Below are positions 1,573-62,421 of a stretch of 64,000 nucleotides of DNA, piece by piece. The translations under genes and the position numbers were made by a program. A model generated the notes under the pieces. That model was not told the DNA's origin and did no database searches. It saw only the letters and a list, made by a program, of their open reading frames with translations. The stretch is from Haliotis asinina (taxonomy: Eukaryota > Mollusca > Gastropoda > Lepetellida > Haliotidae): contig NC_090287.1 in NCBI RefSeq assembly GCF_037392515.1, positions 11,955,001 to 12,019,000 of the forward strand, given 5' to 3'. Within the stretch, counting starts at the first letter, position 1; every line of letters starts with the position of its first letter.

Positions 1573-2346
1573 ATGTTGGACATACCTACCCATCTTCTTC
1601 AGGCTCTCAGTGTCGACACCAATATCACCTACGATCTGGATATATCAAAGTTCCCAGGTTTGGACGACCCACAACAGATGTACCAACCAGCTCTGTTGAT
1701 AGCCACTGACTGGAGCGACTACGTCTATCCTGACGCACAGAGCGTCCCAAATGACACAGATAATACCACAAGTTCATACGACTCAGACAATGCATTTGTG
1801 GATGACTTGTATTTCCTAATAGGTACGTATTCTATCAACATTTGTATCTAACTTGTATCCTTTAATCCTTGAATCACAGTAACGGCATATGTTTCTTAAT
1901 ATGTACGTATCCTATTCACGTGTATGCTGTAACTCATTGATGACATTGTAACTCTAGCATTTACTGGTATTTAGAGGAGTTGTTCATGTTGTTGTTTTCT
2001 TTCCCCAGAAACAAGCCAGGAGTTCTTCACTGATGTCAACAGCAGCGATATAATGGACGACCAGATTTTCCAGTTTCTAGTGGATGACGTCTTTGCAGAC
2101 ATCGACCCAGCTTCAGAGTGTCTTGATGACAAACTCACTTTGGACGACAAAGTTACGATCCCAAAAGAACACTTATCTCCCTTTGTATCATGTATCAGAG
2201 GACAAAAACGCCGCCGAAATGATGACATCGAAAGCAGATCTGCAAGCAAAAAACCCAAACTGGCGGAGGGACCGACTCTTCAATTTCCAACCATGGTTTC
2301 TGTTTGTTCAAGGTCTAACGTGTGTGAACTCGTGAGGCATTCCTAG
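1573..2346 (+). CDS. A-type gene copy A1: small acidic protein with bipartite basic motif, unknown function
   Basis: Two exons are predicted: 1573-1822 and 2009-2346, with a 186-nt GT-AG phase-1 intron, giving 195 aa. The first in-frame ATG was chosen because it lines up with the ATGs of the C and D paralogues; the open frame extends upstream only through a TTG. Residues 15-33 carry the family signature with DLDISKFPGLDDP. Residues 50-80 are Asp-rich. Residues 99-113 (MDDQIFQFLVDDVFA) are acidic and hydrophobic. KRRR at 150-153 and KKPK at 164-167 form a bipartite nuclear-localisation-like motif, and PTMVSVCS lies near the end. No signal peptide, membrane segment or known domain is apparent. 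By eye it differs from A2 at about eight residues. I do not recognise the family; a nuclear role is inferred. Confidence 0.8.
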
Positions 2347-4455
2347 TACAGAAATACTTGTTGACTCATTCATTTTGAGCTTTGAGCTCCACCAAATCAG
2401 TGCTGGCATCTTTTGCCGTCTTCGAAGTGCATTTGCTTGTGTTAGTGACGGGTGTCAACGATGGGACAGGAACGCCTGGTGTCATCACTATCTGACTTCA
2501 TGAACATGTTGTCGTAGTATGGACGGAATCATTTACCGATATACAACATTTATTGAATTTTGAAAGGTTTTACCCTACATATTTGAAGACTCCATTAGTG
2601 CCAATGTACCATTAGTTGTATATGTGCTATCAACAGTATTATTTACACAAACATTCAGTGCATGTAATACGCTTTGACCTGTTTAATGCCATTTTCTGAT
2701 GTTATTTACATCTGTTGCTCACATCTACTTGTTCAGTTACTTGATTAAACTTTTATGACTGAGTTACGAGTGTTTTTGTTATTGATGCTTGGAATAGAAG
2801 GTAGTCAATGCTCATTTTTGTCATGAGCTAGACTTTTCAACATTGTTGACACAATGAAACTGAGGCGATCAATATTTCTACAACAGGACCATTGTATCGT
2901 TTACAAGTAGGACGTCTTCATCGAAAAGTAAAGAAACAAAACCCAGTTCAGCCCCGCTTGCTTGCCCATTATAAGCAACTACACTTGTTCACTTCTAGTT
3001 CGTTGCAAACCTATGTCAACTATGTCACAACTGTAGCTCCTGGGAATTCATATACTTCATCTCAAATAATGTTTTCCATGGTGCCCTTATACAAGCTGCG
3101 ACCTTCGAAATGAATATTTGGAGGCAAAGATCTCAAGCAGTTTGCCAATCCCTTGTTTCAAAATCAGTCAATTTGAATATTAAAATTGAATTTGCTTGAT
3201 TCAACACAACCGTTCCGCCAAAATATTTATCACAAATACATTATTCTAGAAATGCTAATTTTGTACAATGCATTTCTTTGTTATGTCTAACCGCGATGGA
3301 TAGATCGTGACAGCATGAAACACGTTTGTCTTGTGAGTGTACTCCCGATGGTCCCCCAAATTCAAACGTAAATAGTTCATTGTTAGCGAAGTTTCTTCTT
3401 TTGTCTTGCAATGTTATGATTACTCTGTGGAACCAGCTGCAGTGAATGATTGGCAAAATGTTTTCCTTGTGAAATTGTCTTGTTCTTAGGAGACGTGGAG
3501 TCATATCGTCGTGGGGCTTTGTGTGATATTCTTACCTCATGTGATCATCGGATCTCCGTTTACTGAGAGGCTTTGCCTTTGCGCGTGTGATGATATTGAA
3601 GCAAGGGTTAATATTTTCTTCCTATGTGTCACTCAGAATGTGTTGTTATATATTACACAATCAATGAGGCGATACCTCTAAAGTAGCCATACTTTATCAG
3701 ATTATGATGGTTGTGTATTGGTATAGTAATACGTAGAACTCCTATATTTTCTTTTCTTTTTTTCTTTGGTTGTTTTTTGCTATTATTTGTTTTTGGGTGG
3801 TGTGGGTAGGAGGGTTATTGTGACTTCATTTCGTCATTAACCACTAGCAGATGCTACTGGCTACGATGGGAAATGTATGCTCACAATTGTTTTCTCATCT
3901 GAAACCAAATACCATTTTTGAACAAAATACTTCGAAGTTTTAAAAAGATATACACTAATTATGAAAGTAGAAACTGATGCTTTGGAAGTTTATACCATTT
4001 TCACGCCAGAGTCTCTCGCAACCATCTCCTCTGAGATTATACCGTAATGGTATTAATTAATATTTTAGCCCTGTCTAGCACACGCTAAATAACAACGTGA
4101 ATGGTCATCGAGTAATAGGTGAGGTATACACCTAATTGTCTTTTCTTTATGTTTCAAAAGAATGCAAAATTGCATTTTCAGACAATTTTTTCGTGACCTT
4201 TTATGACATTCAAGTAACTACAGGCGGTTCACACACGTTGAGGAATCTGTTACAACTGGCGATATGTGAAATAATTTGGATTTGACAAATACGTTACATT
4301 TGCAACGTTGCACTTGCTTGATAAAGGTGGTAGTACCTACGACGAAGCATCGCACTCATTACATCAAAGTATTTTCATAGAACTTGGCTTTCCTTCATCT
4401 TTACAAAAACTAAACTGCATCTCAAAGAAAAGTATGTATGAATGTATGTTTGCAG
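2347..4455. other. 3' flank of A1, no gene seen
   Basis: This stretch matches the 3' flanks of A2, A3 and A4 in patches, for example 2590-2900 and 3470-3540. ATTAAA at 2744-2749 could be a polyadenylation hexamer for A1, and is shared with the other A copies. ORFs at 2892-3113 and 3241-3504 are not preserved in the paralogous flanks. I see no gene. Confidence 0.6.
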
Positions 4456-4618
4456 GAGTGAGTGAGTGAGTGAGTGAGTGAGTGAGTGAGTGAGTGAGTG
4501 AGTGAGTGAGTGAGTGAGTGAGTGAGTGAGTGAGTGAGTGAGTGAGTGAGTGAGTGAGTGAGTGAGTGAGTGAGTGAGTGAGTGAGTGAGTGAGTGAGTG
4601 AGTGAGTGAGTGAGTGAG
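4456..4618. repeat. Tetranucleotide microsatellite (GAGT)n, about 40 units
   Basis: An uninterrupted run of GAGT units spans about 163 nt. The same motif tails the SINE at 42827, so it may be an expanded relic of a SINE end, although no SINE body is obvious beside it. Its reverse translation gives a Thr-His-Ser-Leu ORF (4805-4422) that is not a gene. Confidence 0.97.
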
Positions 4619-5655
4619 GTATGTTTGTAGGACGTTTAGATTTTAGAAGGCGTGTATTAATGATTTTCTGGTCTGCGTGTGGGTATGTAGTTGTGGAAAT
4701 AATGAGTATACATAGAAACATTTCATGCAAAAAGTATTTCCCCTTGTAAATGATAGCCTGTGCAAGTTGACATCGGCTTTCATGTTTGCGTATTTTCCAA
4801 ATCATTCCAAATTTGATATTTGCATTTTAATGTTTTTGTGCCAAAGTCTGACTGTAGATCATATTTCTGTTAAGTATTTCCTCTTGTAAATGATAGTATA
4901 AAGTCACTATGTATTGCCACTATCAAGAAAGACTACACATAAAGAAAATTAACTTTCGATAACGTGAAAAGCAGAATCAAGAATTTGCATTCAGTTCATC
5001 ACATTTCTCTTATGTCAAGAGACATGGATATATATCTAACTCAAGAAACCCAATTGTAAAGATTTGTTTGTGTATACCTAATCATTTAAGTAATCATTAA
5101 AACCACGTGGAATGGACTTATTGGCAACAAGCAGCCTGTCCAGTGACGTGCATATCATGCTTTACAATTACCCTTGTGTATACAATGCGCGTAATCCCCC
5201 CAAACAAATAACTTTAACACGTCACTCTTGATATAGTCTTATTTAGATCAATTATAGAATGGTATTGTTTATACGGTGAGGTAAAGATGTGTGACAATAG
5301 GAAACGAAGCTGTAATGCAAATGTAATCCCTGTGGTTCAACAATACCATGTATAAACATACTATTGTCACGGTGACGAGTGCTGTGATAACGGATACGTC
5401 ATTCTGATTGTCGTTCCTTTTTTCGCCGTATTGCTGTTTTTCTTACGAAACCAGCTGTAATGACTGATCGCCAATATATTTGTTTTATCAGATCATGACA
5501 GCTATTGTTCCTTGTAGTTGTCAATAAAAGCCTCGTCGTAAAGCTGTCATACTACTGATGATCCATGAATATAAGTACTATTTTTCCTTTATTCCAATGT
5601 AATATTGTTTCATATTTGTAATTTATTGGGTTTTTTGTTTTGTTTTGTTTTCTTT

Positions 5656-5675
5656 GGGGAAGGGGTGGGGGTGGG

Positions 5676-5706
<31 letters not shown>

Positions 5707-5714
5707 GGTGTGTG
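5656..5714. repeat. G-rich low-complexity tract with a run of 19 G
   Basis: GGGG-type runs are followed by (GT)n and 19 consecutive G at about 5690-5708. This could form a G-quadruplex and is absent from the equivalent place in blocks III and IV. Its exact length is likely to be unreliable in any assembly. Confidence 0.85.
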
Positions 5715-6387
5715 ATATAGAAGAACTATCTTAGTCTGGAGTTGAAATTTTCAACATATGTTCAACGACATGCTCAGTCTATAAACGTGAATATGACAGT
5801 GGTTCTGTGGTGTTAGTTATTTGTAGGAATCGATTAATGTAATGTCTGACATGTTGCTGCATTACTTTTGTTATAACATAATCAGTAAAGCAAATCCGTT
5901 TTCAGTTACGAGTTAACATGGATATTACTGAGATGTAGACAAAAGAATACATGTTAACATATTCTATTTTTCTTAACTGGATTGGCGGAAAACCCACTCT
6001 GTGTCAATGCGACAAGTAGATTATCTGACTTTAAAGACTTCACAAATTTAGTCTTGGTGAGTCATAAAAACAGAGGCCGAAATATATGAAAATTATAGAC
6101 ACTCAATTGTTTCTGATTTCATTGTTCCCTTCAGTTATCAGACATAAAACAAGCAATCTACATTAGACATATGAAACGACGATGATTCTTCAAACTGTGT
6201 CTCAAAGCATATTTTAAACACAATAGTGATACTGCATCAAAGCGTGAAATTGTATCAAATGGGCAATGTCGTGATGATCAGTCCTCTTCTGTGCAAAAAC
6301 AATACCAAACCATAAATACTTAGGCAAATATTCTCGTAATTATAATTGCTGTGGAACCGTGGCGCGGGTAGATAAATATCAAAGCGC

Positions 6388-6618
6388 TACCGATTAATTA
6401 TTGCCTGTTTAGAACTGTTAAAACACTCTATCGGACGTCCAGACAAGCGACGCCTCAGGGTTGAGTCATGGCAACGTGTCATTTCTTAATCACATGCAGA
6501 CAATAGGTTTCAGCAGCTTCATGTTTTTTTTAACTTGTCACAGGAAATGTCTGATTAGCTCGGTGAGCTAAACGATCTGATTGGATGTGTAAACGAGCTT
6601 AAAACACATCGTATAAAA
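6388..6618 (+). promoter_or_regulatory. A2 promoter: upstream AT element, inverted CCAAT box and TATA box
   Basis: TACCGATTAATTATTGCC starts at about 6388, GATTGG lies at 6579-6584 and TATAAAA at 6612-6618. The 33-nt spacing between the last two equals that of A1. The ATG follows 49 nt after the TATA start. Confidence 0.65.
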
Positions 6619-6660
6619 ACCTGTGATGTAACCTTGGATGGCATAATTCCCTTCACAACC

Positions 6661-7434
6661 ATGTTGGACATACCTACCCATCTTCTTCAGCCTCTCAGTG
6701 TCGACACCAATATCACCTACGATCTGGATATGTCAAAGTTCCCAGGTTTGGACGACCCACAACAGATGTACCAACCAGCTCTGTTGATAGCCACTGACTG
6801 GAGCGACTACGTCTATCCTGACGCACAGAGCGTCCCAAATGACACAGATAATACCACAAGTTCATACGACCCAGACAATTTATTTGTGGATGACTTGTAT
6901 TTCCTAATAGGTACGTATTCTATCAACATTTGTATCTAACTTGTATCCTTTAATCCTTGAATCACAGTAACGGCATATGTTTCTTAATATGTACGTATCC
7001 TATTCACGTGTATGCTGTAACTCATTGATGACATTGTAACTCTAGCGTTTACTGGTATTTAGAGGAGTTGTTCATGTTGTTGTTTTCTTTCCCCAGAAAC
7101 AAGCCAGGAGTTCTTTGCTGATGTCAACAGCAGCGATATAATGGACGACCAGATTTTCCACTTTCTAGTAGATGACGTCTTTGCAGACATCGACCCAGCC
7201 TCAGAGTGTCTTGATGACAAACTCACTTTGGACGACAAAGTTACGACCCCAAAAGAACACTTATCTCCCTTTGTATCATGTATCAGAGGACAAAAACGCC
7301 GCCGAAATGATGACATCGAAAGCAGATCTGCAAGCAAGAAACCCAAACTGGCGGAGGGACCGACTCTTCAATTTCCAACCATGGTTTCTGTTTGTTCAAT
7401 GTCTAACGTGTGTGAACTCGTGAGGCATTCCTAG
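6661..7434 (+). CDS. A-type gene copy A2: small acidic protein with bipartite basic motif
   Basis: Exons 6661-6910 and 7097-7434 with a 186-nt phase-1 GT-AG intron give 195 aa. The layout is as in A1: signature DTNITYDLDMSKFPGLDDP at residues 15-33, acidic/hydrophobic segment at 99-113 (FHFLVDDVFA here, where the other A copies have FQFLVDDVFA), KRRR at 150-153 and KKPK at 164-167. It differs from A3 at about four residues by eye. An intact frame over 195 codons plus conserved splice sites argue for a working gene. Function is unknown. Confidence 0.82.
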
Positions 7435-9611: not shown

Positions 9612-10545
9612 ATGCTTGACGTACGTCCCCAACCTCTCAGTATCGACACCAACATCACCTACGACCTGGATATGTCCAAGTTCCCAGGTGTGGACGGCCC
9701 ACAACAAATGTACCAACCTGCTCTGCTGATAGCTATTGACTACTTCTACCACACAAGACGCAGACAATACAACACGTTCAGACGACCCAGAAGAAGTCAA
9801 TGTAGACAACTTCCTCATAGGTAATGTAAATCTGTTGACATTTGTATGTTATGAGTATCTATCTTGTATCTTGTAATTCTTGAATCACTGTGACAAAACT
9901 AACGGCAGATATTTCTTAATAGGTACGTAATCTATTAATATTATGAACATCTGCCTGTCTTCAATCAGTAATAACATCGTAACAAAATTACTTGCATTTA
10001 TCTATAGCTCTGTTGCTCATGTTACAACTCGGATTGTCTATTTGTAGACGACTTGTTTTGTCTCAATTCGCGTACTATAACCCTGACGTCCACTGATATC
10101 TTTCTGATTGACAATAAACTGTTGGGCGCTAGTGTAGTGCATGTAATGATATCGTTGCCAAATGAACAAAATATAGTTTTGAAAGTTCTGTAGTTCATGT
10201 GGCTGTTGTCCTTCCCCAGCATGAAGTCAGGAGATTTTTTAACTGATGTCAGCAACAGTAACATAAACGGCGACTATGTTTTCCAGGCCCGGTTTGATGA
10301 CGTTGTTGAACACAATGACGTGGTTGCAACAATATATTGATCCGGGCACACCAAACATCAAAACACATCTTCAGGCAGATGTTTTGGACAGCTTGTATGA
10401 TGGAGTTTGCTTTCGCAGTGAAGAAACTCGAAAGCACATATGTGACGATGTTTTGTCCATAGAACAATTATCTCCCTTTGTATCATGTCTCGGAGGACAG
10501 AAGCGACGCCGAAACGATGAGAAGGCTGTGAAGAAGAAATAGAAA
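9612..10545 (+). pseudogene. B-type paralogue B1, frame-altered relative to A
   Basis: Exon 1 (9612-9820) starts with the family signature (DLDMSKFPGVDGP), but after residue 45 the frame differs from A. The segment that is Asp-rich in A reads as Arg-rich (HTRRRQYNTFRRPRRSQCR). Exon 2 starts at 10220 after CCCCAG. A second length change there restores the A-like frame (FLTDVSNSNINGDYVFQ) until a stop at 10338-10340, predicting about 109 aa. The remainder, including GQKRRRND, stays open in another frame to a TAG at about 10540. Either this is a pseudogene, or a further small intron is used. B2 and B3 share the same changes, so they predate the block duplications. Confidence 0.6.
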
Positions 10546-10634
10546 ATGGCAATCGTCTCTTCATATTCCCAAACTGGTGGTTCCTGTGGTTCAAGATCTA
10601 ATGGGTTTTCTATCAAAACGTTTTCTTTCGGAAA

Positions 10635-11224: not shown

Positions 11225-13160
11225 GTAGCCAAAGTGTTTTGGCCAATATTATCAAGATGACAATCACACTGTAGGTTTTTGGGGGCATATTTATTATTTT
11301 ACCCCAGTACTTTAAACAGCGAGAGTAAGAAATTATGTACAAATGGTATCTCCCACATTCACCGTACTCCATACTATTAGGGGTAGACATACCAACATTT
11401 AAAAACCTTTTACATGCAAGAATGTGAAGTGTCAGATTTCGGATCCATAGAGGAGAACAGGCTGCACTTGGGAATCAAACAACTTGAAAAAATATATATA
11501 CTGGGACCAACAACCCCCAACTTCGGCGTAACAGAGAGCAATTATAGGAAAGCCTTTTCCCCTCTACTTGCCATATTAATGACAGATTTATTCAGGTTTA
11601 GTGTATGTGTAAATGATATCCCTAGATATCTATTTTCTTTGACAACGGACATAAGTTCACCATTAAAGCACCACTTTTCTGTTGCTGCCGTTGGGCCACT
11701 CTTACGAAAAACAACAATTTTGGTCTTTTCAAGATTAACGTCAATTCGCCAGTTATCTGAATCAGTGATAGTCTATTAATTTGCCTCTGAAGGCCAATAA
11801 CAGTGCTTGACATTAGGATCACATCGTCAGCAAAAAGTAAAATAAAGAGTTCAACAAGATCAGGAGATAATTGGATGCCATGTCTGCCGGGTGTCAAAAT
11901 ATAGTTCGTTAATAAAGAACAAAAAAAGTATGGGGCTTAGAACAAAGCCTTGTCGTACACCAACAGGGCAATCAAAATAGTCACTGAAAACATTATCGCA
12001 TCGAACCCAAGACTTTACATTTGAATACACTGACCTGATAATATCAAACATTTTGCCTTTAAGACCCCCATTTCTAAGGCATTTCCTCAGTTTATTTCTC
12101 TCTATAGAATCAAAAGCCTTTCTAAAATCAACAAAAGCTACATACAGTTTTCTCTTACTAAAAGTTAAACATCGCTCAACTACTGAGTTTAGAGTAAAAA
12201 TATGATCAAAGGTTGAGTATTCATTTCTAAACCCAGCTTGTGAATCTGGAATCAGGTCTCTCATATTTGACCACTGTTTTAGCTTATTATTGATAATAGA
12301 TACAAACCTTTTACCAAGAGAGATGCCCCGATTATTGTTAGGGTTATTTGTGTTTCTATTTTTAAATACTGGAACAATTATTGATTTAGCCCATTCAGAA
12401 GGGAAACATCTGGAGTCACATACCAAGTTAAAGCTTTTAACAAGGAACGTCATTATCTCAGGCAAGGCAGTTTTGATCATCTCTGGAATTAAACAATCCG
12501 CCCCAGCAGACTTTACAGCTTTAAGACGAGATACAGCGTTAACTATTTCTAATTCTGTAATAGGAGACTCAATAAGAGCCTGTGATAAGGGTAGGGAGCC
12601 TCTTTGGAGGGTGCGAATATTTTGCCAAAATAGCCTTGGACTGTGATTTTTTATTTTACAATACCTTCTACGATTCTGCATATAGCGATAGCGTCTAAAC
12701 TGCCTAATAACCTTCCTAGATTCCGATCTAGCTACAATACCCAGATGTTCATGGGCCGTAATCACACAGTCTACAACCAATGCTCTGTGTTTTACATAAG
12801 TATAGTCTTGTGTACCCAAACGACCGTTTAGCATGCAAAGATTACCATCAACTAAAATCAACTCTATGAATGGATTGCAGTGAGAGTTTTCTTTTAAGTC
12901 AATTACCTCTCTCTCGGGAACACATTCAACACCTTCGATGTAATCACTTCCCTCACCCAAACGGACATTGAAATCGCCACATAAACACAAGATACCTTCG
13001 ATCTAAGTGATATTTTTTCTAAAAGTCCACTGAAAAAGTGTTCAGCATCATGAGGTCGAATGTAACTCGACGGGGGTAAATAACATACACACAAGGACAG
13101 TTTCATCGTGAGTTGATGTAAGTTTAAACCAGATAATGTCCTAATCCTCACAATCTAAAA
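11225..13160 (-). mobile_element. Non-LTR retrotransposon (LINE) fragment with endonuclease and reverse transcriptase, block II
   Basis: A minus-strand ORF (12990-11860, 376 aa) has an APE-type endonuclease motif (CGDFNVRLGEGSD), a linker, and RT blocks including YVAFVDFRKAFDSI and GVRQGFVLSPILF. The catalytic FADDVILM follows in another frame at 11897-11622. More N-terminal endonuclease sequence (CVCYLPPSSY) lies at about 13100-12990. The start of the ORF is missing or unrecognisable and several frames are broken, so it is dead. The 3' terminus is missing here compared with block III. The clade cannot be assigned by eye. Confidence 0.88.
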
Positions 13161-15825: not shown

Positions 15826-16599
15826 ATGTTGGACATACCTACCCATCTTCTTCAGCCTCTCAGTGTCGACACCAATATCACCTACGATCTGGATATGTCC
15901 AAGTTCCCAGGTTTGGACGACCCACAACAGATGTACCAACCAGCTCTTTTGACAGCCACTGACTGGAGCGACTACGTCTATCCTGACGCACAGAGCGTCC
16001 CAAATGACACAGATAATACCACAAGTTCATACGACCCAGACAATTTATTTGTGGATGACTTGTATTTCCTAATAGGTACGTATTCTATCAACATTTGTAT
16101 CTAACTTGTATCCTTTAATCTTTGAATCACAGTAACGGCATATGTTTCTTAATATGTACGTATCCTATTAACGTGTATGCCGTAACTCATTGATGACATT
16201 GTAACTTTAGCATTTACTGGTATTTAGAGGAGTTGTTCATGTTGTTGTTTTCTTTCCCCAGAAACAAGCCAGGAGTTCTTCACTGATGTCAACAGCAGCG
16301 ATATAATGGACGACCAGATTTTCCAGTTTCTAGTGGATGACGTCTTTGCAGACATCGACCCAGCCTCAGAGTGTCTTGATGACAAACTCACTTTGGACGA
16401 CAAAGTTACGACCCCAAAAGAACACTTATCTCCCTTTGTATCATGTATCAGAGGACAAAAACGCCGCCGAAATGATGACATCGAAAGCAGATCTGCAAGC
16501 AAGAAACCCAAACTAGCGGAGGGACCGACTCTTCAATTTCCAACCATGGTTTCTGTTTGTTCAAGGTCTAACGTGTGTGAACTCGTGAGGCATTCCTAG
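15826..16599 (+). CDS. A-type gene copy A3: small acidic protein with bipartite basic motif
   Basis: Exons 15826-16075 and 16262-16599 with a 186-nt phase-1 GT-AG intron give 195 aa. It is nearly the same as A2 (about four differences, including ALLTATD for ALLIATD). The signature, the acidic/hydrophobic FQFLVDDVFA segment, KRRR at 150-153, KKPK at 164-167 and the MVSVCS tail are all intact. It is an apparently functional family member; function unknown. Confidence 0.82.
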
Positions 16600-18826: not shown

Positions 18827-19760
18827 ATGCTTGACGTACCTCCCCAACCTCTCAGTGTCGACACCAACATCACCTACGACCTGTCCAAGTTCCCAGGTGT
18901 GGACGGCCCACAACAAATGTACCAACCTGCTCTGCTGATAGCTATTGACTACTTCTACCACACAAGACGCAGACAATACAACACGTTCAGACGACTCAGA
19001 AGAAGTCAATGTAGACAACTTCCTCATAGGTAATGTAAATCTGTTGACATTTGTATGTTATGAGTATCTATATTGTATCTTGTAATTCTTGAATCACTGT
19101 GACAAAACTAACGGCATATATTTCTTAATAGGTACGTATTCTATTAATATTATGAACATCTGCCTATCTTCAATCAGTAATAACATCGTAACAAAATTAC
19201 TTGCATTTATCTATAGCTCTGTTGCTCATGTTACAACTCGGATTGTCTATTTGTAGACGACTTGTTTTGTCTCAATTCGCGTACTATAACCCTGACGTCC
19301 ACTGATATCTTTCTGATTGACAATAAACTGTTGGGCGGTAGTGTAGTGCATGTAATGACATCGTTGCCAAATGAACAAAATATAGTTTTGAAAGTTCTGT
19401 TGTTCATGTGGCTGTTGTCCTTCCCCAGCATGAAGTCAGGAGTTTTTTTAACTGATGTCAGCAGCAGTAACATAAACGGCGACTATGTTTTCCAGGCCCG
19501 GTTTGATGACGTTGTTGAACACAATGATGTGGTTACAACAATATATTGATCCGGGCACACCAAACATCAAAACACATCCTCAGGCAGATGTTTTGGACAG
19601 CTTGTATGATGGAGTTTGCTTTCGCAGTGAAGAAACTCGAAAGCACATATGTGACGATGTTTTGTCCATAGAACAATTATCTCCCTTTGTATCATGTCTC
19701 GGAGGACAAAAGCGACGCCGAAACGATGAGATCGAAAACGAGGCTGTGAAGAAGAAATAG
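18827..19760 (+). pseudogene. B-type paralogue B2, frame-altered relative to A
   Basis: Exon 1 is 18827-19029 and exon 2 starts at 19429. It shares the frame changes of B1 and B3: an Arg-rich segment replaces the acidic one, the A-like frame is restored at the exon 2 start, and a stop follows at 19547-19549 (about 107 aa). It also lacks two residues (Asp-Met) in the signature, which reads TYDLSKFPG. The KRRR-coding frame stays open to TAG at 19758-19760. Probably a pseudogene. Confidence 0.6.
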
Positions 19761-19855
19761 AAAATGGCGAATAGATCGTCTCTTCATATTCCCAAACTGG
19801 TGGTTCCTGTGGTTCAAGATCTAAGGTTTTCTATCAAAACGTTTTCTTTCGGAAA

Positions 19856-20488: not shown

Positions 20489-23060
20489 AATCAATCAGTT
20501 TATTGCATGAAGGCCAGTGGCCCATATACAACATATATATGTATAGTATGTACAACATATACAACATATGACACACGTTACAGTGAATCTACTCTTCAAT
20601 ATGAGAGCATGATGAATACATAGAGCTGTCTCATGTTGTAGTAGGGAAGCTTTACTTGAAAGTATTGAATAAAGTTTTGTAGCCTTCTTGTATGAACGTA
20701 GCCATGGCGGGAAATACATCTGCCTTAAATCAGTATATACAGGACATATAAATAAAAAGTGAAATTCATTCTCAACAGTGTTAGAGAATGGACAGAGCCT
20801 TTGTAATTTTATAATGGATGAACATCTTCCTTGATTGATACATAACTCATTTATACCATGTCTCAGGCGTATAAAAGCATTACGAAGGTTTGCAATACAT
20901 AGGTTGTATAGATACGACTCAGGGTCAAGTAGGGATTTAAACTCACGATAGCAGTCATATCTTGAACTTTCATATGAATGCCAGTTCTGTTTAAAGATAT
21001 CGATAGCCCTGGTAAGAAAATGTTTGATAAATGCATTAACATCGCCAAGGGTTTGGGATAACCAGACGAATCCAAAGCCGTGTCTAAACAAAAGACTGCG
21101 AATACAGGTAGCCAAAGTGTTTTGGCCAATCTTATCAAGATGACAATCACACTGTAGGTTTTTGGGGGCATATTTATTATTTTACCCCAGTACTTTAAAC
21201 AGCGAGAGTAAGAAATTATGTACAAATGGTATCTCCCACATTCACCGTACTCCATACTATTAGGGGTAGACATACCAACATTTAAAAACCTTTTACATGC
21301 AAGAAGATGAACCTTTTCGATGGAGTCTCAGATTTCGGATCCGTAGAGGAGAACAGGCTGCACTTGGGAATCAAACAACTTGAAAAAATATATATACTGG
21401 GACCAACAACCCCCAACTTCGGCGTAACAGAGAGCAATTATAGGAAAGCCTTTTCCCCTCTACTTGCCATATTAATGACAGATTTATTCAGGTTTAGTGT
21501 ATGTGTAAATGATATCCCTAGATATCTATTTTCTTTGACAACGGACATAAGTTCACCATTAAAGCACCACTTCTCTGTTGCTGCCGTTGGGCCACCCTTA
21601 CGAAAAACAACAATTTTGGTCTTTTCAAGATTAACGTCAATTCGCCAGTTATCTGAATCAGTGATAGTCTATTAATTTGCCTCTGAAGGCCAATAACAGT
21701 GCTTGACATTAGGATCACATCGTCAGCAAAAAGTAAAATAAAGAGTTCAACAAGATCAGGAGATAATTGGATGCCATGTCTGCCGGGTGTCAAAATATAG
21801 TTCGTTAATAAAGAACAAAAAAAGTATGGGGCTTAGAACAAAGCCTTGTCGTACACCAACAGGGCAATCAAAAGAGTGACTGAAAACATTATGGCATCAA
21901 ACCCAAGGCTTTACATTTGAATACATTGACCTGATAATATCAAACATTTTGCCTTTAAGATCCCCATTTCTAAGGCATTTCCTCAGTTTATGTCTCTCTA
22001 TAGAATCAAAAGCCTTTCTAAAATCAACAAAAGCTACATACAGTTTTCTTTTACTAAAAGTTAAACATCGCTCAACTACTGAGTTTAGAGTAAAAATATG
22101 ATCAAAGGTTGAGTATTCATTTCTAAACCCAGCTTGTGAATCTGGAATCAGGTCTCTCATATTTGACCACTGTTTTAGCTTATTATTGATAATAGATACA
22201 AAACTTTTACCAAGAGAGATGCCCCGATTATTGTTAGGGTTATTTGTGTTTCTATTTTTAAATACTGGAACAATTATTGATTTAGCCCATTCAGAAGGGA
22301 AACATCTGGAGTCACATACCAAGTTAAAGCTTTTAACAAGGAACGTCATTATCTCAGGCAAGGCAGTTTTGATCATCTCTGGAATTAAACAATCCGCCCC
22401 AGCAGACTTCACAGCTTTAAGACGAGATACAGCGTTAACTATTTCTAATTCTGTAATAGGAGACTCAATAAGAGCCTGTGATAAGGGTAGGGAGCCTCTT
22501 TGGAGGGTGCGAATATTTTGCCAAAATAGCCTTGGACTGTGATTTTTTATTTTACAATACCTTCTACGATTCTGCATATAGCGATAGCGTCTAAACTGCC
22601 TAATAACCTTCCTAGATTCCGATCTAGCTACAATACCCAGATGTTCATGGGCCGTAATCACACAGTCTACAACCAATGCTCCGTGTTTTACATAAGTATA
22701 GTCTTGTGTCCCCAAACGACCGTTTAGCATGCAAAGATTACCATCAACTAAAATCAACTCTATGAATGGATTGCAGTGAGAGTTTTCTTTTAAGTCAATT
22801 ACCTCTCTCTCGGGAACACATTCAACACCTTCGATGTAATCACTTCCCTCACCCAAACGGACATTGAAATCGCCACATAAACACAAGATACCTTCGATCT
22901 AAAAGATATTTCTTCTAAAAGTCTACTGAAAAAGTGTTCAGCATCATGAGGTCGAATGTAACTCGACGGGGGTAAATAACATACACACAAGGACAGTTTT
23001 AAAAGTTTCATCGTGAGTTGATGTAAGTTTAAACCAGATAATGTCCTAATCCTCACAATC
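20489..23060 (-). mobile_element. Non-LTR retrotransposon (LINE) with endonuclease, reverse transcriptase and 3' end, block III
   Basis: The pieces on the minus strand, in order, are: endonuclease C-part and RT (22886-21897; GDFNVRLGEGSD, YVAFVDFRKAFDSI), the FADD motif (21793-21518), and C-terminal parts (21273-20863 and 21115-20495). The last carries a Cys/His cluster (CPFSNTVENEFHFLFICP) as at the end of some LINE ORF2 proteins. The 3' terminus at about 20489 has ATTG-like short tandem units, typical of some LINE tails. It is 5' truncated and has several frame breaks, so it is inactive. Confidence 0.88.
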
Positions 23061-25671: not shown

Positions 25672-26445
25672 ATGTTGGACATACCTACCCATCTTCTTCA
25701 GCCTCTCAGTGTCGACACCAACATCACCTACGATCTGGATGTGTCAAAGTTCCCAGGTTTGGACGACCCACAACAGATGTACCAACCAGCTCTTTTGATA
25801 GCCACTGACTGGAGCGACTACGTCTATCCTGACGCACAGAGTGTCCCAAATGACACAGATAATACCACAAGTTCATACGACTCAGACAATGCATTTGTGG
25901 ATGACTTGTATTTCCTAATAGGTACGTATTCTATCAACATTTGTATCTAACTTGTATCCTTTAATCCTTGAATCACAGTAACGGCATATGTTTCTTAATA
26001 TGTACGTATCCTATTCACGTGTATGCTGTAACTCATTGATGACATTGTAACTCTAGCGTTTGCTGGTAGTTAGAGGAGTTGTTCATGTTGTTGTTTTCTT
26101 TCCCCAGAAACAAGCCAGGAGTTCTTCACTGATGTCAACAGCAGCGATATAATGGACGACCAGATTTTCCAGTTTCTAGTGGATGACGTCTTTGCAGACA
26201 TCGACCCAGCCTCAGAGTGTCTTGATGACAATCTCACTTTGGACGACAAAGCTACGACCCCAAAAGAACACGTATCTCCCTTTGTATCATGTATCAGAGG
26301 ACAAAAACGCCGCCGAAATGATGACATCGAAAGCACATCTGCAAGCAAGAAACCAAAACTGGCGGAGGGACCGACTCTTCAATTTCCAACCATGGTTTCT
26401 GTTTGTTCAAGGTCTAACGTGTGTGAACTCGTGAGGCATTCCTAG
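25672..26445 (+). CDS. A-type gene copy A4: small acidic protein with bipartite basic motif
   Basis: Exons 25672-25921 and 26108-26445 with a 186-nt phase-1 intron give 195 aa. It is intact, with about eight residue differences from A3, including DLDVSKFPG, DDNLTLDDKAT and STSASKKPK. KRRR (150-153) and KKPK (164-167) are kept. It is an apparently working member; function unknown. Confidence 0.82.
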
Positions 26446-28627: not shown

Positions 28628-29741
28628 ATGCTTGAAGTACCTCCCCAACCTCTCAGTATCGACACCAACATCACCTACGACCTGGATATGTCCAAGTTCC
28701 CAGGTGTGGACGGCCCACAACAAATGTACCAACCTGCTCTGCTGATAGCTATTGACTACTTCTACCACACAAGACGCAGACAATACAACACGTTCAGACG
28801 ACTCAGAAGAAGTCAATGTAGACAACTTCCTCATAGGTAATGTAAATCTGTTGACATTTGTATGTTATGAGTATCTATCTTGTATCTTGTAATTCTTGAA
28901 TCACTGTGACAAAACTAACGGCATATATTTCTTAATAGGTACGTATTCTATTAATATTATGAACATCTGCCTATCTTCAATCAGTAATAACATCGTAACA
29001 AAATTACTTGCATTTATCTATAGCTCTGTTGCTCATGTTACAACTCGGATTGTCTATTTGTAGACGACTTGTTTTGTCTCAATTCGCGTACTATAACCCT
29101 GACGTCCACTGATATCTTTCTGATTGACAATAAACTGTTGGGCGGTAGTGTAGTACATGTAATGACATCGTTGCCAAATGAACAAAATATAGTTTTGAAA
29201 GTTCTGTTGTTCATGTGGCTGTTGTCCTTCCCCAGCATGAAGTCAGGAGTTTTTTTAACTGATGTCAGCAGCAGTAACATAAACGGCGACTATGTTTTCC
29301 AGGCCCGGTTTGATGACGTTGTTGAACACAATGATGTGGTTACAACAATATATTGATCCGGGCACACCAAACATCAAAACCCGTCCTCAGGCAGATGTTT
29401 TGGACAGCTTGTATGATGGAGTTTGCTTTCACAGTGAAGAAACTCGAAAGCACATATGTGACGATGTTTTGTCCATAGAAGAGTTACCTCCTTTTGTATC
29501 ATGCCTCGGAGGACAAAAGCGACGCCGAAACGATGACATCGAAAACGAGGCTGTGAAGAAGAAATCGAAGATGGCGGATAGATTCCAAAACTGTTTTCCT
29601 GTGGTACAAGGTCTAATGGGTTTGAACTTGGACTCATATGTCAGAATTTGTAAAACACTTGACTCATTTGCTAAGTGTGTGCTTTGTGCCCCATCGATCT
29701 CCGTGCTTGGACCTTTACTTCGACTTGGAAGATGCAATTAA
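28628..29741 (+). pseudogene. B-type paralogue B3, the least degraded B copy
   Basis: Exon 1 is 28628-28836 and exon 2 starts at 29236. The frame pattern is as in B1, with an in-frame stop at 29354-29356 (about 109 aa). The second frame runs open to 29741 through GQKRRRNDDIENEAVKKKSK and beyond, past the point where B1 and B2 stop. A 73-nt GT-AG interval (29318-29390) would join the two frames in phase, but its donor (GTTGTT) is weak. It is either a pseudogene or a three-exon gene with a basic middle region. Confidence 0.55.
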
Positions 29742-36178: not shown

Positions 36179-37096
36179 ATGGGCATCCCAGAGCACTTAC
36201 AGCACCCTCTGAGTATAGATACCAGCCTCAGCTACGATCTTGACCTGTCCCAATTCCCTGGGCTGGATGGTCCACGATATCACAATGAACCCATGTTGAT
36301 AATTGCACCTTCTACCAGCGGATTTAACTGTGGAATTGAAAGGTCAAACAGTCAAGTTGATGGTTCACCCACAAGAAAAAGCCAAAGTGAGATCCACTTT
36401 TCAACAAGACTTACAGCAGTGGGTCATCCAGGTGGACAGACGGATAGTCAAGATGCATTATGTGATATCATGGGTAGGTTCCTAAGGCATCGTCCTCTTC
36501 ACTATCAAATTGAGATTCATGCACTTCACTTATATACTTCACTGATAATTACGTGAAGTTACTACATACATGTCTACCTTTTGGAACATTTAGTATATTG
36601 GAGGATTTCTTTGCGTGTAAATCATGATATAATCTTACTTATCTTTGTTGCAGATATTCCAAACACGGACCTGTTCGTTGGTCTTGGCAATACAGCTGCT
36701 TACCACTCCATCGTTGAGGATGTGATACGTGGATTACCTTACTTTGATGACTTGACATATGTGGATGGTCCCTCTACGAATCAGAGACCTAAGTGTTATG
36801 TTCCCAGCAGACAATATCCAGAAATATTGACAACACATATCGGACAAAGCAAACACTCAGATGTTTCAAGAGGATGTGCCCAAATGTCTAATGTGAATCA
36901 CAGAAATGTGCCATACGCAAGCACACATGTCTATTCCAAAAGGAAACGAGCTGATGATGACAGTGAAACCGACTATCACAAGAAACCATGTTTCCGAACA
37001 GGACATAAGGAATACCTTTACAGCAACCACTATGGTGCACAAAGCTTTGGGACATATTCTGCCATCGGTTTCAGAAACCAAGTTCGGGTTATTTAA
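36179..37096 (+). CDS. C-type gene: diverged single-copy member of the family
   Basis: Exons 36179-36473 and 36654-37096 with a 180-nt phase-1 GT-AG intron give 245 aa. The open frame extends upstream only via a GTG, so the ATG is chosen; it aligns with the A and D starts. Residues 10-31 hold the diverged signature (DTSLSYDLDLSQFPGLDGP). Exon 2 begins DIPNTDLF and contains an acidic/hydrophobic stretch (SIVEDVIRGLPYFDDLTYVD) around 117-136. KRKR at 194-197 and HKKP at 207-210 form the bipartite basic motif. The C-terminal 35 residues are Tyr/Gly/Asn-rich and differ from A and D. It is flanked by unique DNA, and may be closest to the founder copy. Function is unknown; a nuclear location is inferred. 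Confidence 0.8.
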
Positions 37097-47597: not shown

Positions 47598-48443
47598 TCA
47601 TGACAGTCTGCTTAAGTCACAATGCCCACATGTGGAAAACACAGACACCATAGAGGGAATAAGTTTTGAATCGGTCATCAACCTTGGATTCTTTTTGGAA
47701 TCAGCCTCTTCAGCATCAGCTGATCGGTATCTTTTCTGTCTTCGACCATATTGTGTTGCCGCTAGTAAGTCATCGGCAGAGATCCCACATTCGTTGTGAA
47801 AACTGCAGTCAACATCACAGTGTTCAAAGTCCTGTCGTCTATGCCAGGTGTCTGTGTTGAGGACTGTATGTTTAGTCAAGGTGGTGTCACATGATGACGA
47901 GAGTTCTTCTGCGACGTCGTCCAGAACCAACTGGAAAGTGTTGCTATCCAAGGCACTACTGGGGTCAAGGTCGGAGAACAAACTCTGGTTGCTATCTGAA
48001 GATGAAAGTCATTAAAATTAACTCACATTTTCATACGGGTGTCAACAAATGCAAATCGAAAATATTTACAGTGCATTTGTTTTTCAGTTTAGTCTTCTGT
48101 TCACACAAATATTCTGTTTCAATCAGTAGTGGTCAATGTAGACATTTAAAGAAGGTGTAGAATATAAGAAATTCATGAACTGAATGATGCAACATAATTT
48201 TGACATACCTTCAAGATAATCGAGAGTGTCAAGAATATTTGGAACACGATTTGTATGATCATTATTTGTGACACAATGTGTGATGTTGTCAAAGTAGTCG
48301 CTCCAGTCAGTGGCTATCAACAGAGCCGGCTGATACATGTGTTGTGGGTCGTCCAGACCTGGGAACATTGACATATCCAGGTCGTAGGTGATGTTGGTGT
48401 CGATACACAGAGGTTGAAGCAAGTGGGGAGGTACGTTTGTCAT
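47598..48443 (-). CDS. D-type gene copy D1: small acidic protein with bipartite basic motif
   Basis: Exon 1 is 48443-48209 and exon 2 is 47995-47598, with a 213-nt phase-1 GT-AG intron, giving 210 aa. The first 50 residues are very close to A (CIDTNITYDLDMSMFPGLDDP, then QPALLIATDWSDY), although the rest diverges strongly. Exon 2 carries FQLVLDDVAEEL (99-110), a Cys/His-containing acidic region (136-148), RRQKRYR (163-169) with KKNPR (179-183), and PSMVSVFS near the end, matching PTMVSVCS of A. D1 has Met where D2, D3 and A2 have Lys (MSMFPG against MSKFPG). The frame and splice sites are intact; function is unknown. Confidence 0.82.
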
Positions 48444-49671: not shown

Positions 49672-50062
49672 AACAACAACAACAACCATAATGCATGACC
49701 AACAATAGCAAACAACACTGCATGACCAACAACAACAAACAACACAGCATGACCAACAACAAACGACACTGCATGACCAACAAAAGCAAGCAAAACTGAA
49801 TGACCAACACCAAACGACACTGCATGACCAACAACAACAAACAACATTGCATGACCAACAACAAACGATACTGCATGACCAACAACAACAAACAACATTG
49901 CATGACCAACAACAAACGATACTGCATGACCAACAACAGCAAACAACACTGCATGACAAACAACAAACGATACTGCATGACCAACAACAGCAAACAACAC
50001 TGCATGACCAACAACAACAAACGATACTGCTTGACAAACAACAACAAACAACACTGCATGGT
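49672..50062. repeat. Unit 1: minisatellite of 24- and 27-nt units
   Basis: About 14 units of the type CATGACCAACAACAAACG plus ATACTG (24 nt) or with one more CAA (27 nt) follow the SINE tail. Because units are multiples of three, long ORFs appear on both strands (for example 50162-49617); these are by-products. Confidence 0.92.
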
Positions 50063-54588: not shown

Positions 54589-55434
54589 TCATGACAGTCT
54601 GCTTAAGTCACAATGCCCACATGTGGAAAACACAGACACCATAGAGGGAATAAGTTTTGAATCGGTCATCAACCTTGGATTCTTTTTGGAATCAGCCTCT
54701 TCAGCATCAGCTGATCGGTATCTTTTCTGTCTTCGACCATATTGTGTTGCCGCTAGTAAGTCATCGGCAGAGATCCCACATTCGTTGTGAAAACTGCAGT
54801 CAACATCACAGTGTTCAAAGTCCTGTCGTCTATGCCAGGTGTCTGTGTTGAGGACTGTATGTTTAGTCAAGGTGGTGTCACATGATGACGAGAGTTCTTC
54901 TGCGACGTCGTCCAGAACCAACTGGAAAGTGTTGCTATCCAAGGCACTACTGGGGTCAAGGTCGGAGAACAAACTCTGGTTGCTATCTGAAGATGAAAGT
55001 CATTAAAATTAACTCACATTTTCATACGGGTGTCAACAAATGCAAATCGAAAATATTTACAGTGCATTTGTTTTTCAGTTTAGTCTTCTGTTCACACAAA
55101 TATTCTGTTTCAATCAGTAGTGGTCAATGTAGACATTTAAAGAAGGTGTAGAATATAAGAAATTCATGAACTGAATGATGCAACATAATTTTGACATACC
55201 TTCAAGATAATCGAGAGTGTCAAGAATATTTGGAACACGATTTGTATGATCATTATTTGTGACACAATGTGTGATGTTGTCAAAGTAGTCGCTCCAGTCA
55301 GTGGCTATCAACAGAGCCGGCTGATACATGTGTTGTGGGTCGTCCAGACCTGGGAACTTTGACATATCCAGGTCGTAGGTGATGTTGGTGTCGATACACA
55401 GAGGTTGAAGCAAGTGGGGAGGTACGTTTGTCAT
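54589..55434 (-). CDS. D-type gene copy D2: small acidic protein with bipartite basic motif
   Basis: Exons 55434-55200 and 54986-54589 with a 213-nt phase-1 intron give 210 aa. The predicted protein equals D3 and differs from D1 at one residue (MSKFPG). All family features (signature, FQLVLDDVAEEL, RRQKRYR with KKNPR, PSMVSVFS) are intact. Confidence 0.82.
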
Positions 55435-55484: not shown

Positions 55485-55528
55485 TATTTAAAGTGTTTTG
55501 GTCAAGCATGCGCGAGCTTCGACCAATC
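55485..55528 (-). promoter_or_regulatory. D2 core promoter
   Basis: GATTGG (55528-55523) and TTTAAATA (55492-55485) are placed as in D1. Confidence 0.65.
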
Positions 55529-56443
55529 AGATGGTCAGTTTACTTAGCTTACTTAGCGTAGCTTACGAACCTCGACCCATTCCTTCAGAGCATGTTTTTC
55601 GTCAAAGCAATTGTCACAAATTACAGCGAGCCGGGCTAATTAATATGTCTCCGCATTGAAGTGGATGTCGGCTTGCACTGCCGCGGACGGTGCTGGCTAT
55701 AACCTATTGTGTAGTAATTCTCTGTAGCCAACTGATTACACCCGTTGTTTTTAAGCTGCTTTGAAATGTGTAGACAATAGAAGCGTATTTGTTTGCTGTG
55801 TTGATGCGCTAACATCGCTCTAAAACTGCAGATAGCTTTAACGCATATTAATCCTGATTTCAGAGAATGTATTGAGAGTAGACATAATTAAAGAAATGAA
55901 TCTGGTATTTCGTATATTTCAATGAACATGACATTCACTTTACGCAGAATTATACGTGCTAGTTGTAATCATGCACAATTCATCTTGCATCTTTTTATAC
56001 AATAACAACCTCTCTTTCGTCTGCAGTCGTCAGCGGTTGTTCTGATGCAAAACCACGAATAGACTTTTGACAGAGAACATCTTCCCAAATAATATAAAGG
56101 GGGATGTTTGAAATATTGCATTTCCTTGCAAGAATAATCTATCCCCAATATTGGGTTACTGTTTTAATTAGACATATATAGTTTCCAATTTGATGCATGA
56201 ACCTTTACGACATTTCACCGTGGTCGCCACAACGATACATAAAATATATTTTACGACACTTCAGCCAATGTCAGTGAGCACGAAAACGTGTGTGTTCTGA
56301 AGTTTCTTCCCTTGCAATAGAAACAAATTGATGAGGAGGGGGGTTTCATTTCGTCATCGCACTGGTTAATATATTGAGTTTTGTCTACTTGGGACCATAT
56401 AATATATGATGACTATATCTGCAAAATTGAAGAAACAGTGCTG

Positions 56444-56656
56444 TACCCGTGACGATCCGGGTTAGAAATGATCTTCAGTAGACCACGCCAGTCAATGACT
56501 AACGGGATCGGGTGGTCAGGCTCTCTGACTTGGTTGACACATGTCATCGTATTACAATTGCTTAGAGCAATGTTCATCACTGGATTGCCTGGTTCAGAAT
56601 CGATCATTCACATACTGCCGCGATAGACCTGGGCTACTGAGTGTGGCTTAAAACAA
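56444..56656 (+). mobile_element. Unit 2: SINE
   Basis: Same insertion as 49453-49665, carried along with the unit duplication. It has ATGACTAACGGG where unit 1 has ATGCCTAACGGG. Confidence 0.75.
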
Positions 56657-56659
56657 CAA

Positions 56660-57049
56660 ATCAACAACAACAACCATAATGCATGACCAACAATAGCAAA
56701 CAACACTGCATGACCAACAACAACAAACAACACAGCATGACCAACAACAAACGACACTGCATGACCAACAAAAGCAAGCAAAACTGCATGACCAACACCA
56801 AACGACACTGCATGACCAACAACAAACAACATTGCATGACCAACAACAAACGATACTGCATGACCACCAACAACAAACAACATTGCATGACCAACAACAA
56901 ACGATACTGCATGACCAACAACAGCAAACAACACTGCATGGCAAACAACAACAAACGATACTGCTTGACCAACAACAGCAAACAACACTGCATGACCAAC
57001 AACAACAAACGATACTGCTTGACAAACAACAACAAACAACACTGCATGG
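56660..57049. repeat. Unit 2: minisatellite of 24- and 27-nt units
   Basis: Same array as in unit 1 with a different order and number of 24-nt and 27-nt units, so it has changed since duplication. Units 2 and 3 look alike over the visible part. Confidence 0.92.
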
Positions 57050-60043: not shown

Positions 60044-61575
60044 TCAGCAGCACACAATGCAGTTTACACACACGTGTTGCAATGCAGAGTTGCACCCCTA
60101 TGTCACACAATGCGCTAGTTCAACTTAATAGACAGGTAATAGTTGGTGGCTAGAAAATATGAATCAACGGTGTAAACATTAGTCGCCCTTGCTCTCAGTC
60201 TTTTTGTTGCCTAAAAGGCAAAACAGTGGTTACAAATATGTAAATGGATCTCTCAAAATCTCTGACAATTAGTGTGAATTAGTGTGACGATATATGACCC
60301 AAGACATGTCCAATGTTGTTTTTTATCACATTCAAAATATGTAACACTACATTGAAAAGGTCAATAAACTTATCAATTAAACCGGACGAAAGTACAGCCT
60401 TGAAATGAGATTATCTGTAAGGTTAAATTACAGTCACCTTCTGATGGAGCGGCCGAGTTTCAAAGAACGGAAATATAAAACTGACTGAGCCTGGGAGTTG
60501 ATATCGGGGTAAATGTTTTATCACATATATTTTCTGGTGTCTGTGGGAAAGACAATGCTTCCTAATCCACCATCAATGTCATTGCCGGATGTTGTGTTGC
60601 TTCATCTCACTGTACCCAACAAAATTCGTAGATATGAGGGCCGGCATAGGGAATGCTTACCTAACCTTGCACCAAGTCTGAACTGAGGGCTAAGCCCTTG
60701 GATGTATGGTACTTCTGTCCTTCAAAGATGCAAGTCTAGATAAGGGGAAGGTCTAGATAAGGAGAGGACGCCAGACCCACTACACCAGAAACGTGTACAA
60801 GTCCTCCCAAGTATATACCTTGCGCCATCCTTTTTGGGCAGACAGTTGTGGCTATGTACAGAAACAACTATATATACTGAAAAATGTTACATAACATTAG
60901 ACAGTTTAATTTGAATATAAAGCCTCCAGGGTGCAGGATTGTTTTAAATTAACTATGATATGTTTGCTCCCCGTGTTAACCGTTTGATTAATGTTACCAA
61001 CTGCCCATACATTAAGATGCATGAAACATGTCTCGCAGGTACACAATTAGACTAGCACTTAGTTTCTGAATGTGTATGATTTCGATCGTAAGAAATAAAC
61101 GCATTTTAATTGAAAAGGAACTTTAGTGAGACGAAAGATTAAAAAACTGGTGGAACTTCCTTCATTTAGTGCTTTAGCATTGCAGGGCGGGTTAGGCTGT
61201 AAGGAATATAATACGATTCAGTGACTGTGAGGCAGACTAGTACACACTGTAAACCTACATTGCAGAGGATGATTTATCGCCATGCAGATAATAAACCACA
61301 CGAGTGAACATATTTTGTGATAATTATATGTATTTCAATAAACAACAATAACATGGTAGAGATTACACGAGGAAGATGTATAGCAGTAACAGTAACTTCA
61401 AGCACTCGTTACATGTTCATTTCCTGATCAACCTTAACTGTGAGAAAGTGTAACAGTGAACTGGAATGTTTACATGTATTCTTCTAGCACCACAGATCAT
61501 ACTGTCTCTGTATGAGGCCACAGTAACAACTGAGTGGGTTATCATGGGTGGAAGCTGATGATTTCAAATACATCT

Positions 61576-62421
61576 TCATGACAGTCTGCTTAAGTCACAA
61601 TGCCCACATGTGGAAAACACAGACACCATAGAGGGAATAAGTTTTGAATCGGTCATCAACCTTGGATTCTTTTTGGAATCAGCCTCTTCAGCATCAGCTG
61701 ATCGGTATCTTTTCTGTCTTCGACCATATTGTGTTGCCGCTAGTAAGTCATCGGCAGAGATCCCACATTCGTTGTGAAAACTGCAGTCAACATCACAGTG
61801 TTCAAAGTCCTGTCGTCTATGCCAGGTGTCTGTGTTGAGGACTGTATGTTTAGTCAAGGTGGTGTCACATGATGACGAGAGTTCTTCTGCGACGTCGTCC
61901 AGAACCAACTGGAAAGTGTTGCTATCCAAGGCACTACTGGGGTCAAGGTCGGAGAACAAACTCTGGTTGCTATCTGAAGATGAAAGTCATTAAAATTAAC
62001 TCACATTTTCATACGGGTGTCAACAAATGCAAATCGAAAATATTTACAGTGCATTTGTTTTTCAGTTTAGTCTTCTGTTCACACAAATATTCTGTTTCAA
62101 TCAGTAGTGGTCAATGTAGACATTTAAAGAAGGTGTAGAATATAAGAAATTCATGAACTGAATGATGCAACATAATTTTGACATACCTTCAAGATAATCG
62201 AGAGTGTCAAGAATATTTGGAACACGATTTGTATGATCATTATTTGTGACACAATGTGTGATGTTGTCAAAGTAGTCGCTCCAGTCAGTGGCTATCAACA
62301 GAGCCGGCTGATACATGTGTTGTGGGTCGTCCAGACCTGGGAACTTTGACATATCCAGGTCGTAGGTGATGTTGGTGTCGATACACAGAGGTTGAAGCAA
62401 GTGGGGAGGTACGTTTGTCAT
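61576..62421 (-). CDS. D-type gene copy D3: small acidic protein with bipartite basic motif
   Basis: Exons 62421-62187 and 61973-61576 with a 213-nt phase-1 intron give 210 aa, the same predicted protein as D2. It is intact; function is unknown. Confidence 0.82.

Follow-up and report, generated by a model that had tools for sequence, protein, structure and literature searches.

Two groups of described proteins come closest in character to the products of a family of small two-exon genes that we analysed in a 64,000-nucleotide stretch of the genome of the abalone Haliotis asinina (contig NC_090287.1, positions 11,955,001 to 12,019,000; this whole stretch is called the window below). These are (i) the CITED-type and other small co-regulators without a DNA-binding domain, which share with our family a small size, the lack of a predicted fold over most of their length, hydrophobic or acidic helices and a nuclear-type signal; and (ii) the acrosomal proteins of abalones, which likewise belong to duplicated gene families. 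The first resemblance is functional only: the Pfam model of the CITED family was absent among the Pfam matches of three window proteins and of 25 family members, PDB sequences gave no match either, and we claim no membership. As for the second, acrosomal proteins are secreted sperm proteins, whereas the Haliotis two-exon family has, by eye, no signal peptide and carries a nuclear-type signal. Closest in sequence are uncharacterised Haliotis proteins, including P0001, P0002 (LOC124146649) and P0024 (LOC124146298), which belong to the same family as the window genes; each had been entered in the database as a lone predicted protein with no family or function assigned to it.

An earlier note on this DNA had described eleven copies in four classes, and a motif scan allowing up to three substitutions in the signature recovered all of them: four of class A, three of class B and one of class C on the forward strand, and three of class D on the reverse strand. 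(Further loci of the same genome carry L numbers, and proteins retrieved by searches P numbers.) Judging from sequence features, we put the probability at roughly 0.5 that the family consists of nuclear adaptors built from a docking peptide, a helix at the exon junction and a bipartite nuclear localisation signal. In kind this is a lineage-restricted tandem family; what is unusual is its homogenised and constrained start of exon 1, set against a free exon 2.

Relatives and age of the family

As the earlier note had anticipated, searches of Pfam, PDB sequences and Rfam yielded no significant family. The three window proteins had no Pfam match at E ≤ 10, and the 25 members produced eight Pfam families at E ≤ 1, none above its curated cut-off. 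The crustacean neurohormone family was considered for P0027 (E 0.0012) and rejected, as its 19.2 bits lie below the cut-off of 25 and it concerned one member only.

An A-type query, one residue removed from the protein of copy A3, returned ten proteins, all ten from Haliotis, with P0001 97% identical. In the profile search that had been proposed as a check, 28 of 5148 candidates matched at E ≤ 10; 23 of these were named and came exclusively from Haliotis (H. asinina, H. rufescens, H. cracherodii and H. rubra), and the remaining five come from short contigs. P0009 and P0010, found by the A-type query, were not listed again by the profile, and the named relatives number 25 in total, all of them uncharacterised Haliotis proteins. 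Among named matches the family is thus provisionally restricted to Haliotis, provisionally because the homology search requires shared five-residue words, so that distant relatives may escape it. No description of the family was found among the titles and abstract openings of the matches listed, and six locus names of Haliotis relatives drew no mention in the literature searched; the family is undescribed in these libraries and this literature.

A maximum-likelihood tree was computed from 36 rows, omitting the B copies, L025, L028, L030 and P0025, P0026, P0027, P0028, P0029 and P0030. In it the H. asinina genes cluster by class with sequences from three other species (H. rufescens, H. cracherodii, H. 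rubra), and nine of the eleven classes have a partner from another Haliotis species (A, L007, L008, C, L024, L020, the L019 group, the L014 group and L026), the placement of the L019 group beside its partner being supported at 87/76 only. D and L013 lack such a partner among the tree rows used; L013 and P0008 have long branches of uncertain position, and several of the deep forks are not firmly settled. Because the tree pairs them with sequences of other Haliotis, most of the classes compared predate, on this evidence, the divergence of these species, with the fourfold A and threefold D multiplications being younger. A purely recent burst of the whole family, which we had considered, is ruled out by the partners of the nine classes; among the named matches the family is lineage-restricted, but as a whole it is not a recent expansion.

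Protein architecture and candidate function

The product of exon 1 comprises a conserved module, some 36–45 residues long with the core PLxIDTxIxYxLDxSxFPGLDxPxxxxQPALLIA, a linker that varies and, where the two exons meet, a short hydrophobic segment (e.g., DDLYSLI or EDLLSVI) with the intron directly after it; exon 2 encodes a variable middle part and a bipartite basic motif. In an alignment of 25 proteins, all of which show the module pattern YxLDxSxFPGLD with PxL downstream, the invariant columns (L12, Y20, L22, D23, F27, P28, G29, L30, P33, P39 and L41) fall without exception within the first 41 residues, while Q10, P11, T16, D78, R152 and K164 are nearly invariant. A phase-1 GT-AG intron behind the hydrophobic segment is present in 21 gene models from this genome, found by a search constrained to that arrangement.

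The basic motif on the C-terminal side, pointed out in the earlier note, is present in all 12 class representatives of the H. asinina genome (12 of the 21 models were scored), and composition shuffles have it in 0.1–14% of cases; 13 of 15 other proteins examined have it as well. The family profile also aligned the motif to an N-terminal basic stretch of CBP80 (NCBP1), RRRHSDE...HKRRK, which has the same shape and is presumably a bipartite nuclear localisation signal; at a domain i-Evalue of 700 this alignment is not significant and implies no homology.

AlphaFold2 models were obtained for A1 (mean predicted local distance difference test score, pLDDT, 58; predicted template modelling score, pTM, 0.20) and P0021 (mean pLDDT 55, pTM 0.22). 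Helices span the exon junction in both, at residues 73–90 in A1 and at 74–88 and 90–97 in P0021, and the proteins are probably mostly disordered. The first 40 residues of A1 and the first 30 of P0021 reach block-mean pLDDT values of 69–79 with only short turns, and the N-terminal segment might fold upon a partner.

On the adaptor reading, the proteins would act in the nucleus and have no DNA-binding domain of their own. The basic motif would serve as an importin-type nuclear localisation signal and drive nuclear import, the N-terminal module would dock onto a conserved partner of the host, and the junction helix together with the segment that follows it, acidic in the A/D/L007/L008/L014 branch, would recruit transcription co-regulators. 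Several observations count against this proposal. The motif pattern was missed in P0008, where the spacer is longer by eye, and in P0027, which has none; both AlphaFold2 models are of low confidence; and although the net charge before the basic motif is −22 to −31 in A, D, L007, L008, L014 and L015, it is only −2 to −10 in C, L013, L019, L020, L024 and L026. Because acidity is not family-wide, an acidic activation role suits one branch only.

The same architecture might instead belong to nuclear antagonists in a conflict, that is, to proteins that would act as decoys or inhibitors by binding a partner of viral or host origin with their N-terminal module while exon 2 diverges in an arms race. 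We think this unlikely, even though clustered birth and death, recent tandem multiplication, the divergence of exon 2, probably broken copies and the restriction to Haliotis among named matches would all suit it. The ratio of nonsynonymous to synonymous substitution rates (dN/dS) is 0.10–0.68 in every computable pair, which excludes those with a dS of 0 or at saturation, and is nowhere above 1, which gives no evidence of positive selection; conservation falls on the very part that is supposed to dock; and none of the 12 stretches on viral contigs that fit the peptide pattern encodes a relative. The term fast-evolving used in the earlier note suits exon 2, but not the start of exon 1.

Abalones are known for fast-evolving reproductive families, and this general background favours another role, that of reproductive or early-embryo regulators peculiar to abalones and expressed in gonad or cleavage stages. 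Such a role is doubtful, however, as the N-termini of the family, inspected by eye, show no signal peptide, unlike proteins of the secreted lysin/VERL type.

Selection and homogenisation at the start of exon 1

The near-identity of the N-termini of A and D had been taken as the mark of a selected domain, to be checked by following dN/dS along the protein. Between A and D, dN is indeed lower in the first 48 codons than in the rest (0.106 vs 0.658), but dS is lower there too (0.47 vs 1.81), and these silent-site counts led us to reject A–D identity as sole proof of selection. Old pairs provide the better evidence: in the first 48 codons C and L024 differ with dS 2.6 and dN 0.27 (dN/dS 0.10), and L013 and L026 with dS 2.0 and dN 0.27 (dN/dS 0.13). 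Four-fold degenerate sites in this region agree at 8/13 in C–L024, 5/18 in L013–L026 and 2/12 in L019–L020. As the old pairs keep the peptide despite silent-site divergence, the substitution counts indicate that the N-terminal peptide is under purifying selection. In four comparisons of the first 48 codons dS is 0, with one to three replacement changes. The selected domain is thus upheld, but the identity of A and D is in part a matter of conversion-like homogenisation.

This second component is seen among A1, D1, L007 and L008, which are 85–90% identical over the first 144 nt, 52–79% over the remainder of exon 1 and 39–58% in forced alignments of the upstream region, intron and exon 2. For A1 and L007, 90% identity over the first 144 nt compares with 47–51% upstream, in the intron and in exon 2, and four-fold sites are the same at 14/15 in the first 48 codons vs 4/17 in the rest (Fisher p 8e-5). 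Pooled over the six pairs, which are not independent, the first 48 codons show agreement at 75 of 94 four-fold pair-sites, while intron identities of 47–52% stand only 1–6 points above the means of shuffled sequences (44–47%, 12 shuffles each). Furthermore, the three copies at 10.56 Mb (L014, L015 and L018) are mosaics: in exon 2, 79 sites link L018 to L014 and only 3 link it to L015, and yet its exon-1 nucleotides 186–213 go with L015 at 8 of 8 informative sites. Because silent sites agree too while introns barely beat shuffles, gene conversion or an equivalent exchange appears to be the simplest account of the homogenised exon-1 start.

The conversion account does not fit every comparison equally well. 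The Fisher contrasts between the first 48 codons and the rest in the six pairs give p values of 8e-5, 0.004, 0.005, 0.016, 0.106 and 0.132, of which the last two are not significant and that of 0.016 is moderate; nor is the contrast significant for L014–L015 or L015–L018 (p 0.132 each). Upstream regions lie 0–10 points and exon 2 lies 2–9 points above their shuffled means and, since they align better than shuffles, these parts keep some common ancestry.

The near-identity could alternatively reflect constraint on the nucleotides themselves, through a regulatory element or RNA feature embedded in exon 1. That in several pairs the alike tract stops close to where the conserved peptide ends, and that the old pair C–L024 retains the agreement given above, would fit this explanation; yet the other old pairs differ at most such sites and the three copies at 10.56 Mb are mosaics, which makes it quite improbable next to gene conversion.

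A further protein, P0030 (281 residues, encoded on a 1035-base contig), bears on whether the N-terminal segment is a unit. It contains copies of the segment at residues 141 and 187, with local scores of 89 and 111 against P0021 (shuffle maximum 39 each, n=1000), and, at residue 103, a weak third copy whose score of 45 was reached by 1 of 1000 shuffles (maximum 47); the basic motif KKRKREENVHKIQKR follows these copies. Used as a query, P0030 recovered only itself among 658 candidates, and searched against the H. asinina genome it had its better matches, down to E 1.4e-4, all in the gene cluster, with E ≥ 0.5 outside the family. The N-terminal segment can be regarded as a module since P0030 repeats it. 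We tentatively extend this, as a possibility on the doubtful side, to an unnamed nuclear peptide module that would be a unit of its own, single in abalone genes and tandem in P0030, with some paralogues kept uniform at the exon-1 start by conversion tracts roughly 150 nt long, so that a set of nuclear regulators would share one docking piece while the effector exon diversifies.

Gene copies, promoters and surrounding repeats

Three protein queries, counted together, located no fewer than 26 exon-1 places of the H. asinina genome on contig C8, 23 of them within 250 kb (11.877–12.126 Mb) and three at 10.560–10.572 Mb, and one more on contig C14 that is broken by a stop, which gives a genome total of at least 27, all these counts being lower bounds. 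The clustering reported in the earlier note therefore holds, but its eleven copies are only part of the family. Exon 2 alone was matched at two further places (12102302 and 12068804). A degenerate DNA pattern search of the 1.14-Gb genome gave no match, although the protein queries did find members. Intact spliced models were obtained for 21 of the 27 exon-1 places, and no convincing one for L025 (on C14), L028 or L030. The acceptors of L013, L018 and L023 come from second-ranked models chosen to agree with relatives, and one of the alignments carried an L013 model with an acceptor other than that finally adopted. At the cluster edge, L030 and L028 (C8 11877371 and 11881384) are divergent members, L030 retaining the core of the module only; P0027, an H. 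rufescens protein that by eye is related to L028, has kept exon 1 and lacks the bipartite basic motif.

Within the window, classes A, C and D have models that run open to a stop codon in two exons with a phase-1 GT-AG intron, as had been described: class A with 83 codons plus 1 nt in exon 1, an intron of 186 nt and a protein of 195 aa; class C with 98 codons, 180 nt and 245 aa; and class D with 78 codons, 213 nt and 210 aa. The intron range of 180–213 nt given earlier is thus correct here, but models from the whole genome span 139–626 nt. The junction search was restricted to phase 1 and to an exon 1 that ends in a hydrophobic segment; when junctions were ranked by length without this constraint, others came first for A and C, and the adopted ones came first for D. 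The splice models are independently supported because 9 of the 21 equal database proteins, two of these up to the choice of start codon.

On the forward strand, with signatures at 1615, 6703, 15868 and 25714, the intact A genes are A1 at 1573..2346 (exon 1 1573–1822, intron 1823–2008, exon 2 2009–2346; 195 aa, equal to the uncharacterised H. asinina protein P0001), A2 at 6661..7434 (exons 6661–6910 and 7097–7434), A3 at 15826..16599 (exons 15826–16075 and 16262–16599) and A4 at 25672..26445 (exons 25672–25921 and 26108–26445), the last three as splice models. The intact C gene, also on the forward strand (signature 36218), occupies 36179..37096 (exons 36179–36473 and 36654–37096), and its 245-aa model equals P0012. 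On the reverse strand (signatures 62379, 55392 and 48401) lie the intact genes D1 at 61576..62421 (exon 1 62421–62187, exon 2 61973–61576), D2 at 54589..55434 (exon 1 55434–55200, exon 2 54986–54589; splice model), whose protein is identical to that of D1, and D3 at 47598..48443 (exon 1 48443–48209, intron 48208–47996, exon 2 47995–47598; 210 aa).

The B copies, relatives of A on the forward strand, have signatures at 9645, 18860 and 28661 and lie at 9612..10620 (B1), 18827..19830 (B2) and 28628..29741 (B3), their ends being approximate. An A-like reading loses its frame in each of the two exons; B1 has a readable basic motif, but a stop codon lies inside it. A mechanical search yields longer spliced readings, mostly unlike A, of 154 aa for B1, 158 aa for B2 and 215 aa for B3, and because of these longer readings we call the three copies only probably broken, B3 least securely. 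Compared by eye, A exon 2 lacks a stretch that is found in P0002 and P0003 (relatives from H. rufescens and H. cracherodii) and is still recognisable in the B copies.

Self-comparison of the window showed A blocks 90–98% identical to each other, in repeat units A2+B1, A3+B2 and A4+B3 spaced 9.2 and 9.8 kb, with A1 5.1 kb before A2, and D units 99.3–99.6% identical at a spacing of 6.99 kb. These units bear out the claim of at least two separate rounds of expansion. The multiplication of A (four copies), B (three) and D (three) is the recent part of the family history, as far as sequence comparison can date it.

Putative promoter elements precede A1 at 1489..1531 on the forward strand, consensus matches to an inverted CCAAT box (CTGATTGG, 1489–1496) and a TATA box (TATAAAAC, 1524–1531, 49 nt before the ATG). 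In a scan of 14 representatives out of 24 upstream stretches, a TATA-like sequence was found 30–62 nt before the ATG in 8 (dinucleotide-shuffle mean 0.33 of 14) and the inverted CCAAT box [CGT]TGATTGG 45–140 nt before it in 8 (mean 0.09 of 14); random stretches of the window have them in 3.9% and 0.9% of cases, respectively. A TATA box this near the ATG would imply a very short 5' leader. The pattern TGATGxAA occurs near the TATA position in 4 of the 14 (A, B, D and L007), which are close relatives, and we make no claim for it. Upstream of B1 and B3, the CCAAT and TATA sequences of A are altered. TATA/CCAAT-like promoters in about half of the classes suggest regulated expression, against which it must be weighed that each element is absent in 6 of the 14 representatives and that, as the patterns were picked after viewing the sequences and the copies are related, the figures are descriptive.

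Several repeats accompany the genes. Reverse transcriptase open reading frames (ORFs; PF00078, LINE-like by eye) at 11860–12990 and 21897–22886 on the reverse strand lie inside the A+B unit and were duplicated along with it, the block being 97% identical. Each D unit contains one tandem array of 24–51-nt units (CAACAACAACAAACAACACTGCATGAC), at 49674–50060, 56662–57048 and 63649–63997, which yields long low-complexity ORFs not to be counted as genes. A perfect (GAGT)n array of about 41 copies at 4456–4618 gives rise to a repetitive ORF at 4422–4805 (reverse strand), and about 118 kb outside the window L091 (7919–8929, reverse strand) is a long ORF resembling, by eye, a Tc1/mariner transposase. 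That the family itself is part of a mobile element, or is decaying without function, is very improbable: the reverse transcriptase ORFs inside the A+B unit, the transposon-like ORFs (by eye) on the one flank examined and the broken look of the B copies would agree with it, but 21 of the 27 exon-1 places yield an intact model, nine of the eleven tree classes have partners in other Haliotis, 26 of the 27 places are on a single contig, and no reverse transcriptase, integrase or transposase domain was found in the genes, the Pfam scan of the 25 members giving no transposon domain at E ≤ 1.

If the nuclear-adaptor proposal is correct, abalones would carry a multi-gene set of nuclear regulators that share one docking module absent from the libraries searched. 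Since the constrained and free parts are split near the exon boundary and by conversion-like tracts, the family would offer a handle on the origin and diversification of orphan regulatory families, and at least 25 uncharacterised Haliotis database proteins could be named and tested together.

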